Assembly (NCBI RefSeq): GCF_004363235.1
Contig: NZ_SNYW01000013.1
Location: 62,001-126,000 of the forward strand
Reading direction: 5' to 3'
Length of the DNA: 64,000 nucleotides
Source of the DNA: Dongia mobilis
GTDB lineage: Bacteria; Pseudomonadota; Alphaproteobacteria; Dongiales; Dongiaceae
Below are positions 40,220 through 47,314 of the stretch, in pieces (position 1 is the first letter of the stretch; every line of letters begins with the position of its first letter). The translations under genes and the position numbers were made by a program. A model generated the notes under the pieces. It saw nothing but the letters and a program-made list of their open reading frames with translations. It did not search any database and had not been told where the DNA came from.

Positions 40220-40221
<2 letters not shown>
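39598..40221 (+). CDS. rnhB: ribonuclease HII
   Basis: 207-aa enzyme that removes ribonucleotides embedded in DNA and RNA primers. The acidic active site begins at VCGVDEVGRGPLAGPV (Asp-Glu near 20), with a further Asp in AHALIDGN; IVKGDQKSLSIAAASILAKVERD is the RNase HII signature. ATG 39598 has GGAG just upstream; a GTG 22 codons earlier (39532) is possible. The stop codon overlaps the first GANTC site of the ccrM promoter region. Confidence 0.94.
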
Positions 40222-41388
<1,167 letters not shown>

Positions 41389-41409
41389 ACGACGGCAAAG
41401 CGCTTTTTG

Positions 41410-41525
41410 TGTCATGGCCCGCCCCGTCAACCAATGTCGACATGCGGGCCATCCACGAGTTTCACTGCAAGTGACTGACCTGTTGCGATAAACTTGTGGA
41501 TCCCCCGCCTGCGCGAGGGATGACA
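41410..41525. repeat. composite palindromic intergenic repeat, copy 2
   Basis: TGTCAT, hairpin arms GGCCCGC (41416-41422) / GCGGGCC (41444-41450), then ATCCACGAGTTT (41451-41462), a 27-base centre, AAACTTGTGGAT (41490-41501, inverted copy with one mismatch), an imperfect hairpin starting CCCCCGC, and ATGACA (41520-41525). Same order of parts as 16083-16169. It sits between ccrM and the dnaB promoter and may also end ccrM transcription. Confidence 0.75.
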
Positions 41526-41564
41526 ACAGAAACTGCGACGAAGCAACGCGTCTTCTTCGCGCGC

Positions 41565-41654
41565 GACTCGAATCATTCTTTTATGATCCCATGATTCACG
41601 TTATCCACAGGCACGGATTGCTTCGTGCCCTGCTAGGGTCGCGCCCATGGAATC
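41565..41654 (+). promoter_or_regulatory. dnaB promoter region: GANTC cluster and DnaA box
   Basis: GACTC (41565-41569) and GAATC (41570-41574) abut, GATTC follows at 41593-41597 and GAATC at 41650-41654 overlaps the second codon. GAATCAT (41570-41576) and ATGATTC (41591-41597) are a perfect inverted repeat around a good -10 (TATGAT, 41582-41587); no clear -35 is seen. TTATCCACA at 41601-41609 is a perfect consensus DnaA box, 38 bases before the dnaB ATG. Confidence 0.75.
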
Positions 41655-43134
41655 GACACAGTCAAACAACATTGCCCATATTCGCGGCGGTCCCACCACG
41701 CCGACGCGGATCCCGCCGGTCAATTACGAGGCCGAGCAGGCGCTCCTCGGCGCCATCCTCGCCAACAATCTGGTCTTCGACCGGGTCAACGAGTTCCTGC
41801 GGCCCGAACATTTCGCCGACGCGCTGCACGGGCGCATCTTCGCCGCCATCGCCAAACTGATCGAGCGTGGCCAGATCGCCAACCCGGTGACGCTGAAGAA
41901 TCTGTTCGACCAGGACGGCGCGCTGGCCGAGATCGGCGGCGCCGCCTATCTCGTGCAGCTGGCCCAGGCCGTCGTCACCGTCATCAATGCCGAGGATTAC
42001 GGCCGCACCATCCATGACCTGTACCTGCGCCGGCAATTGATCGATCTCGGCGAGGCAACGGTCAACGAGGCCTATATCCACGACACCGAAGTGACGGCGC
42101 TGCAGCAGATCGAATCCGCCGAAGCCAAGCTTTTCGCCCTGGCCGAGACCGGCCAGGTGGAGGGCGGGCCGAAGGATTTCAAGTCGATCGTCATCTCGGC
42201 GCTCAACATGGCCGAGGCTGCGTTCAAGCGCGACAGCCACCTGACCGGCGTCACCACCGGATTGACCGATATCGACCGCAAGCTGGGCGGGCTGCAGCCC
42301 TCCGACCTCATCATCCTCGCCGGCCGCCCCTCGATGGGCAAGACGGCGCTTGCCACCAATATGGGCTTCAACGCCGCCAGCGCCTTCAAGGAGGGCGATA
42401 CCGGGACGCGCTACAAGGTCGCCTTCTTCTCGATGGAAATGTCCTCGGAACAGCTGGCGCTGCGTATCATGGCGGAAAAATCCGGCGTCTCCTCCGACCG
42501 CATCCGCCGCGGCGACATCAAGGGCGATGACGAGTTCACCCGCATCGTCGAGGCCTCGACCGAGATGAGCTCGGCCGGCTTCTTCATCGACGACACGCCG
42601 GCCCTCACCATCCCGGCCCTCCGCACCCGCGCCCGGCGCCTGAAGCGCCAGCACGGCCTCGACCTCATCATCATCGACTATCTGCAGCTGATGCGCTCGG
42701 CCAACAACCGCGGCTCGGAGAACCGGGTCCAGGAAATCTCCGAGATCACGCGGGGCTTGAAGGCCATCGCCAAGGAACTGAACGTCCCGGTGATCGCCCT
42801 CTCGCAGCTCTCCCGCGCCGTCGAGCAGCGCGACGACAAGCGCCCGCAATTGGCCGATCTGCGCGAATCGGGTTCGATCGAGCAGGACGCCGACGTCGTC
42901 ATGTTCGTCTATCGCGAGGAATATTATCACGAGCGCAAGAAGCCCGGCGACCACGAGGCCGAGAAGATGTCCGAATGGCTGCGGGAGATGGAGCGCGTCC
43001 ACAACGTGGCCGAAGTCATCATCGCCAAGCAGCGCCATGGTCCCATCGGCACCGTGCCGCTGCAATTCGAGGGCATGCTGACCAGGTTCAGCGACCTGGT
43101 GCGCAGCGACTACCTGCCGGCACAAACGGAATAG
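41647..43134 (+). CDS. dnaB: replicative DNA helicase DnaB
   Basis: 495-aa hexameric 5'-3' replicative helicase. The N-terminal collar domain (NYEAEQALLGAILANN) is followed by a RecA-like ATPase with Walker A GRPSMGKTA, Walker B LIIIDYLQLM and the arginine-finger region LADLRESGSIEQDADVV. No intein is present and the length is normal. It is the first gene of a tight same-strand series (dnaB-alr-mlaE-mlaF-radA-cvpA-purF). Upstream GANTC and DnaA sites suggest cell-cycle control. Confidence 0.96.
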   Translation: MESTQSNNIAHIRGGPTTPTRIPPVNYEAEQALLGAILANNLVFDRVNEFLRPEHFADALHGRIFAAIAKLIERGQIANPVTLKNLFDQDGALAEIGGAAYLVQLAQAVVTVINAEDYGRTIHDLYLRRQLIDLGEATVNEAYIHDTEVTALQQIESAEAKLFALAETGQVEGGPKDFKSIVISALNMAEAAFKRDSHLTGVTTGLTDIDRKLGGLQPSDLIILAGRPSMGKTALATNMGFNAASAFKEGDTGTRYKVAFFSMEMSSEQLALRIMAEKSGVSSDRIRRGDIKGDDEFTRIVEASTEMSSAGFFIDDTPALTIPALRTRARRLKRQHGLDLIIIDYLQLMRSANNRGSENRVQEISEITRGLKAIAKELNVPVIALSQLSRAVEQRDDKRPQLADLRESGSIEQDADVVMFVYREEYYHERKKPGDHEAEKMSEWLREMERVHNVAEVIIAKQRHGPIGTVPLQFEGMLTRFSDLVRSDYLPAQTE

Positions 43135-45850: not shown

Positions 45851-47314
45851 ATGGCACGGCCAGCCCGCAACTATGTCTGCCAGTCCTGCGGCGCCGCCTT
45901 TCCAAAATGGGCCGGCAAATGCGAGGCCTGCGGCGCCTGGAACTCGATCGTCGAGGAAGCGCCGGTCGAGAGCGTGCCCAAGGGGCTGTCCGGCAAGCGC
46001 GGCAAGGGTGTCACCTTCGTCACACTCGACGGCGATGTGCCGCAGACCATCCGCCGGCCGACCGGCATCGCCGAATTCGACCGCGTCACCGGTGGCGGCC
46101 TAGTGCGCGGGTCGGCTGTCCTCATCGGCGGCGATCCCGGCATCGGCAAGTCGACCCTGCTGCTGCAGGTCGTGACCGCATTGAAGAACACCCGCTCTGC
46201 CTATATCTCGGGCGAAGAGGCGGTCGAGCAGGTGCAATTGCGGGCGCGGCGCCTGGGCCTTGGCCCGGATGACAGGATGCCGGGCGGCAAGGCGGGCGAG
46301 ATGAAGACCGAACTGGCCGCGGCGACATCCCTGCGCGACATCATGGCGAGCCTCGACCGCGACGACGCACCCGAGATCGTGGTGATCGATTCCATCCAGA
46401 CTCTCTATCTCGACAGCCTGGATTCCGCCCCCGGCACCGTCGCCCAGGTCAGGACCTGTGCTGCCGAGCTGATTCGCCTTGCCAAGAGCCGGGGCTTCAC
46501 CCTGCTGCTGGTCGGGCATGTCACCAAGGAGGGCCAGATCGCGGGGCCCCGCGTGCTCGAACATATGGTCGATACCGTGCTCTATTTCGAGGGCGAGCGC
46601 GGGCATCATTTCCGCATCCTGCGCTCCGTCAAGAACCGCTTCGGCCCGGCCAACGAGATCGGCGTCTTCGAGATGTCGGACCGGGGTCTCGCCGAAGTGC
46701 CGAATCCCTCCGCCCTGTTCCTGGCCGAGCGCCACGGCAATGTCAGCGGCGTTTCGGTCTTTGCCGGCATCGAGGGAACGCGGCCCGTATTGGTGGAAGT
46801 GCAGGCCCTGGTCTCGCCCTCGCCCCTCGCCACCCCGCGCCGCGCCGTGGTCGGCTGGGATTCCGCGCGCCTTGCCATGATTCTGGCGGTCCTCGAGACA
46901 CGCTGCGGCCTCGGCCTTGCCGGCAGCGAAGTCTATCTCAACATCGCCGGCGGCCTCAGGATCACCGAGCCGGCGGCCGATCTTTCCGTGGCACTGGCCC
47001 TCGTTTCCTCGCTCTCCGACCGCTCGGTGCCGGGCGATCTCATCGCCTTCGGCGAGATCGGCCTCTCGGGCGAGGTGCGCATGGTGGCCCAGGCGGAAAC
47101 GCGCCTCAAGGAAGCCGCCAAGCTGGGCTTCAAGCGCGCCATTCTGCCAAAGCGCATGACCCAGGCCGGCGGCAAGCCGATCCGGGTTCCCGGCCTCGCG
47201 CTCGTCGAAATCGGCCATCTGCAAGAAATGATCGATTGGCTCTATAATGAAGTGCGCTCCAATGCCCTCCAGGCAACGGTGAGCGCCAGTCGACAACAGC
47301 ACAACAAAGGCTAA
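45851..47314 (+). CDS. radA: DNA repair protein RadA
   Basis: 487-aa RadA/Sms, a RecA-like helicase that extends recombination D-loops. The N-terminal zinc finger is CQSCGAAFPKWAGKCEACG; Walker A is GGDPGIGKST (about 99); the RadA-specific KNRFG motif is present; and the C-terminal third is Lon protease-like without a functional Ser-Lys pair. It starts 12 bases after mlaF. Confidence 0.95.
   Translation: MARPARNYVCQSCGAAFPKWAGKCEACGAWNSIVEEAPVESVPKGLSGKRGKGVTFVTLDGDVPQTIRRPTGIAEFDRVTGGGLVRGSAVLIGGDPGIGKSTLLLQVVTALKNTRSAYISGEEAVEQVQLRARRLGLGPDDRMPGGKAGEMKTELAAATSLRDIMASLDRDDAPEIVVIDSIQTLYLDSLDSAPGTVAQVRTCAAELIRLAKSRGFTLLLVGHVTKEGQIAGPRVLEHMVDTVLYFEGERGHHFRILRSVKNRFGPANEIGVFEMSDRGLAEVPNPSALFLAERHGNVSGVSVFAGIEGTRPVLVEVQALVSPSPLATPRRAVVGWDSARLAMILAVLETRCGLGLAGSEVYLNIAGGLRITEPAADLSVALALVSSLSDRSVPGDLIAFGEIGLSGEVRMVAQAETRLKEAAKLGFKRAILPKRMTQAGGKPIRVPGLALVEIGHLQEMIDWLYNEVRSNALQATVSASRQQHNKG

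Follow-up and report, generated by a model that had tools for sequence, protein, structure and literature searches.

A predicted DnaA- and GANTC-marked control region upstream of the replicative helicase gene dnaB in Dongia mobilis

The ccrM-dnaB locus and its sites

The DNA analysed is a stretch of 64,000 nucleotides from Dongia mobilis, referred to below as the window. It contains dnaB, the gene of the replicative DNA helicase (NCBIfam NF006606, 723.8 bits; TIGR00665, 517.8 bits), and directly upstream of it ccrM, a neighbour that a preliminary description of the region had overlooked. The ccrM product is an orphan GANTC adenine methyltransferase with the Pfam domains N6_N4_Mtase and RAMA. 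By far its best NCBIfam match is the CcrM equivalog DnaMtaseCcrMCaul (NF050803), with 636 bits; this falls short of the model's curated cut-off (830), possibly because the model was constructed from Caulobacter relatives. One copy of gcrA is present in the genome. Both CcrM and GcrA, the pair on which a GcrA/CcrM promoter relies, are thus encoded, and the proposal that GANTC is read here in the CcrM manner is a possible one. The features are listed below in window coordinates.

40220-40262, plus strand: ccrM promoter region, with GACTC (40220-40224), a -35-like TTGACA (40239-40244), GAATC (40249-40253) and GACTC (40258-40262)
40294-41388, plus strand: ccrM, start codon uncertain
41565-41569: GANTC site 1, GACTC in CGACTCG, conserved in the genus; at -29 relative to the candidate promoter P1
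41570-41574: GANTC site 2, GAATC in CGAATCA (TGATTCG on the minus strand); at -24 relative to P1
41582-41587, plus strand: TATGAT, the -10-like element of the candidate upstream promoter P1
41592-41600, plus strand: TGATTCACG, by eye a weak DnaA-box-like element, abutting the strong box
41593-41597: GANTC site 3, GATTC, inside TGATTCACG; among relatives common to G001 only
41601-41609, plus strand: exact DnaA box TTATCCACA, centred at -41 from the predicted leaderless start
41631-41639, plus strand: extended -10 element TGCTAGGGT of the predicted main promoter P2; 7 bases separate it from the ATG
41647-43134, plus strand: dnaB
41650-41654: GANTC site 4, GAATC (ATGGAATCG), in dnaB codons 2-3; found in some family members only

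The elements first reported for this region were all recovered in their places: four GANTC sites, of which sites 1 and 2 abut, the inverted repeat GAATCAT/ATGATTC flanking TATGAT, and the exact DnaA box, which 37 bases separate from the dnaB ATG at 41647. They had been presented as a promoter cluster of four GANTC sites; the fourth, however, lies in the dnaB coding region.

GANTC is depleted in the window (125 sites observed, 299.5 expected from shuffles), as is known for alphaproteobacteria with CcrM (PMC3973325). Background rates were drawn from 464 kb of the same genome, where one site occurs per 516 bases, with densities of 2.6 per kb in non-coding DNA (crudely called) and 1.85 per kb in coding DNA. 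For a given non-coding stretch of 90 bp, the probability of at least four sites is about 9e-5, and one further cluster of four in 90 bp was encountered in 400 kb sampled outside the window. The cluster at dnaB is rare, but not unique. Within the window, another group of four sites in 90 bases lies at 46388-46475, inside the radA coding region. Abutting GANTC pairs are found at 17 places genome-wide, compared to 7 for a reversed control pattern.

The exact box TTATCCACA occurs 12 times in 4.19 Mb, and its reversed control 14 times. Since it is no commoner than the control, its presence alone proves nothing, and the weight of the argument rests on conservation. One of the 12 copies lies 141 bases upstream of gcrA (L146, G000:C2:236856-236864, minus strand), a position that DnaA control of gcrA, of the kind known from Caulobacter, would lead one to expect. 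Exact boxes were also seen upstream of an apparent lexA (L154, G000:C9:216843) and an apparent uvrC (L150, C7:254903), both genes being recognised by eye from their translations.

A conserved start-proximal promoter and phased DnaA boxes

DnaA boxes with at most one mismatch were counted within 160 bases upstream of dnaB in 16 genomes of the family and 97 other alphaproteobacterial genomes. A box was present in 12 of the 16 and in 43 of the 97, while 300 permuted DnaA motifs gave means of about 0.4 and 2.4 genomes, respectively, and none reached the observed counts. Across 10 aligned genomes from two genera, TATCCACAG is invariant between scrambled flanks; several family members possess degenerate boxes only, of the TTATCCCCG type. 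The box accompanies dnaB even where ccrM is no neighbour. It is both conserved in relatives and close to the promoter, which are the marks of a DnaA-regulated promoter, and we regard it as a deeply conserved, predicted DnaA site in the dnaB control region. Comparison with related genomes, which had been put forward as a check on the first reading of the locus, gave a mixed answer: both kinds of site are conserved upstream of dnaB, but GANTC only within the family, and the inverted repeat is not preserved. As a separate observation, the dnaB upstream regions of many alphaproteobacteria (relatives of the L111 type, for example L174, L217 and L285-L313) carry TTATCCCC followed by facing boxes (CCACAGGCTGTGGATAA), an array larger than that of the window's genus.

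The second conserved element is a -10-like hexamer next to the start codon. Of 113 alphaproteobacterial genomes, 51 have the pattern TANNNT at a distance of 6 to 8 bases upstream of the dnaB ATG, compared to about one genome per position elsewhere, and the extended form TGnTANNNT was found in 23 of 60. Among held-out genomes, 65 of 69 had TANNNT 6 to 10 bases before the ATG, an ATG having a -10-like element being preferred where several were in frame. A -10 element at 6 to 8 bases from the start codon is what characterises a leaderless transcript. The upstream TATGAT had been taken as the -10 of dnaB; given this strongly conserved element, the main promoter is probably TGCTAGGGT instead. Its position puts the predicted start of transcription on the A of the ATG or no more than one base away, and we infer a dnaB mRNA that is leaderless or nearly so. 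P2 has no recognisable -35 hexamer, and a consensus sigma-70 scan of 41380-41660 found no promoter, which is to be expected where a -35 is lacking. The AGGG of TAGGGT could in part serve as a ribosome binding site; the variants TAGTGT and TAGGAT argue against this reading, and neither these nor TAGATT and TACAGT, which also occur as -10 hexamers, are ribosome binding sites. Leaderless mRNAs are common in Caulobacter, where 375 cases are described (PMC4117421); a mapped dnaB start for that organism was not found in the main texts of the literature searched.

With the start placed at the ATG, the centres of plus-strand boxes fall at about -41, -51, -61, -71, -82, -93 and -103. When periods from 6 to 16 were compared in the discovery set, 10.3 gave the best fit (R = 0.63, n = 23 with genera de-duplicated). 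The period and phase of the discovery set were then applied to held-out genomes, and the periodicity was again present and the phase reproduced (n = 15, R = 0.58, P of about 0.006), with a phase of 0.2 compared to 0.7 in discovery. Taking one box per genus, the Rayleigh test gave no better than P = 0.006. A control with permuted motifs was too sparse to help (13 motifs had at least 8 sites, and one equalled the observed value); it was replaced by random shifts, for which P was 0.0007 per genus and 0.003 per family. A single genus may exhibit two layouts, with boxes at -61 and -51 in G003 and a single box at -41 in the window's genome. The phasing suggests that DnaA may contact RNA polymerase from a single helix face. 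No description of a leaderless dnaB start or of phased boxes was found in the literature searched, which included few subscription papers.

Could DnaA bound at such a site act instead as a repressor, by blocking elongation from P1 or by occluding the -35 area of P2, so that dnaB expression drops when DnaA is abundant? The box does lie a short way past the P1 start and covers the place of P2's missing -35, and in E. coli many targets are repressed by DnaA, which can also be a roadblock (PMC11317965). Repression by occlusion, however, does not account for boxes at many helical steps up to about -100, a distance too great for occlusion of the polymerase, and in phase with the -10. Moreover, according to a review, dnaB was assigned to the Caulobacter DnaA regulon by an experiment that delayed the transcription of dnaA, part of a study on genes whose expression increases at the G1-S transition (PMC8203912). 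We consider repression improbable, and activation by DnaA the better prediction. Less credible still, to the point of being very improbable, is a role of the region as a small titration site for DnaA, or as an element resembling an origin, with an incidental link to dnaB transcription: paired or inverted boxes (TTATCCCCG ... CCACAGGCTGTGGAT) do occur in several relatives, but the element goes with dnaB irrespective of which gene lies next to it and keeps phase with the -10 of dnaB, and the window's genome has no large box cluster.

GANTC sites in the window's family

The simplest account of the locus would stop at the DnaA box: DnaA would drive the leaderless promoter, and the GANTC sites would be bystanders, produced by the non-coding excess and a chance cluster beside ccrM. 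The densities given above and the existence of other clusters of four fit this account, as does the distribution of GANTC in the class. Outside the family, 54 GANTC were counted upstream of dnaB in the 97 genomes, compared to a mean of 43 for control pentamers, which is within the control range and no excess; in leaderless-promoter spacers outside the family there were just 3 in 110. GANTC as a class-wide dnaB signal was rejected, the enrichment being limited to the window's family. Within the family, by contrast, 29 GANTC were counted in the 16 dnaB upstream regions, where the 24 pentamers of identical composition averaged 9, which speaks against bystanders.

The conserved sites, moreover, sit in promoter spacers, although the promoters themselves are predicted. 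In 5 of the 6 genomes of the window's genus, the conserved CGACTCG/CGAATC sites are followed at 16 to 17 bases by a TANNNT, so that GANTC falls at -28/-29 of this upstream element; the second GANTC of G000 (the window's genome) and G002 is at -23/-24 of the upstream TANNNT. P1 has no -35 and its TATGAT-type element is absent in G001; it is probably a secondary upstream promoter at best. In the sister genus it is the leaderless promoter that carries the site: all four species have a GANTC at one aligned spot, -24/-25, reading GATTC, GACTC, GAATC and GAGTC. That the central base takes all four letters while GA-TC stays constant suggests that the methylation site itself is under selection, four genomes being few, and counts against the bystander account.

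The GcrA motif is YGAKTCG (PMC7987155). Sites 1 and 2 match it on the minus strand and would be the candidates for GcrA binding; sites 3 and 4 do not match, and neither they nor the inverted repeat are generally conserved, which again is what the bystander account would predict for this part of the cluster. We hold it to be unlikely overall, though deserving of consideration. The inverted repeat was also considered as an operator and rejected, since it is not kept in relatives. Linkage of ccrM and dnaB was likewise rejected as the cause of the cluster: among family genomes the two genes are adjacent in G000 and G002 only, and box and GANTC occur without adjacency. The ccrM gene itself has 2 to 4 GANTC upstream in all 16 family genomes, with a varying central base, pointing to a possible methylation feedback on ccrM.

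A two-input reading and its relation to known systems

We favour the reading that dnaB possesses a two-input cell-cycle promoter region, in which DnaA is the main input and GANTC, methylated by CcrM and read by GcrA, is the second; we give it a probability of about 0.6. DnaA would bind the box at 41601-41609, whose centre lies some 41 bases before the predicted start, from the same side of the helix as in other alphaproteobacteria. So bound, it would recruit or stabilise RNA polymerase at the extended -10 TGCTAGGGT. The second input would be specific to the family: GcrA would read GANTC that CcrM has methylated in the spacer of a promoter. At this locus, the pair at 41565-41574 would act on the upstream TATGAT. 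The output of dnaB would then also track the methylation state after fork passage. Timing by fork passage, which the preliminary description had inferred together with DnaA binding, is plausible for the window's family only, because elsewhere in the class dnaB exhibits no GANTC enrichment.

A broader version, which we put forward tentatively and at somewhat less than even odds, extends the leaderless dnaB promoter to the alphaproteobacteria as a whole. DnaA would act there as an activator of the CRP type from any of several whole helical turns (centres from about -41 to -103), and CcrM/GcrA control would have been added in the window's family, with GANTC shifting between two promoters, always in the spacer.

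The preliminary description knew of no described CcrM-DnaA control of dnaB; as regards DnaA, the literature contradicts it. According to a review (PMC8203912, citing Hottes et al. 2005), dnaB of C. crescentus belongs to the DnaA regulon and has predicted DnaA boxes. The likeness to our locus lies in the gene and the upstream box, DnaA-dependent expression being reported for Caulobacter; the boxes there are predicted only, and the review text mentions no leaderless start, phasing or GANTC. The DnaA of M. tuberculosis also binds upstream of dnaB, and dnaB expression is reduced in a mutant whose DnaA is impaired in binding (PMC7738170); this organism belongs to another phylum and has no CcrM or GcrA.

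For the GANTC sites, the closest parallels are again in Caulobacter, where GANTC between -35 and -10 marks CcrM-timed promoters active at 40 to 60 min, and where 19 promoters combine DnaA and GANTC (PMC4287350). The Caulobacter promoters podJ P2 and mipZ P2 have DnaA motifs plus sites for CcrM or other master regulators, and podJ P2 joins a DnaA motif to a GANTC at -24, the spacing of the sister genus and of site 2 relative to P1. They differ in that other genes are concerned and that their transcripts have leaders, with DnaA motifs at -52 to -83 (PMC4287350). The ctrA P1 promoter, of the GcrA/CcrM type, has GANTC at -28/-29 in its spacer, as do site 1 and TATGAT here (PMC4287350); it is also repressed by CtrA, and that text describes no DnaA box there.

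DnaA control of dnaB and joint DnaA and GANTC promoters are thus already known, and the part worth testing is the phased leaderless architecture. The mode by which DnaA activates transcription is called poorly understood (PMC11317965), and a set of promoters belonging to a single gene, in which the start is fixed while the boxes move by helical turns, would provide a clean natural test of a face-of-helix contact between DnaA and polymerase. According to a study of GcrA regulons, the control of replication genes is conserved within Caulobacterales and not beyond (PMC7987155); a GANTC-marked dnaB would extend such control to another order. If the two-input reading is true, the initiator would set the level of the helicase that DnaA loads, and the methylation clock would be a later addition in the window's family.
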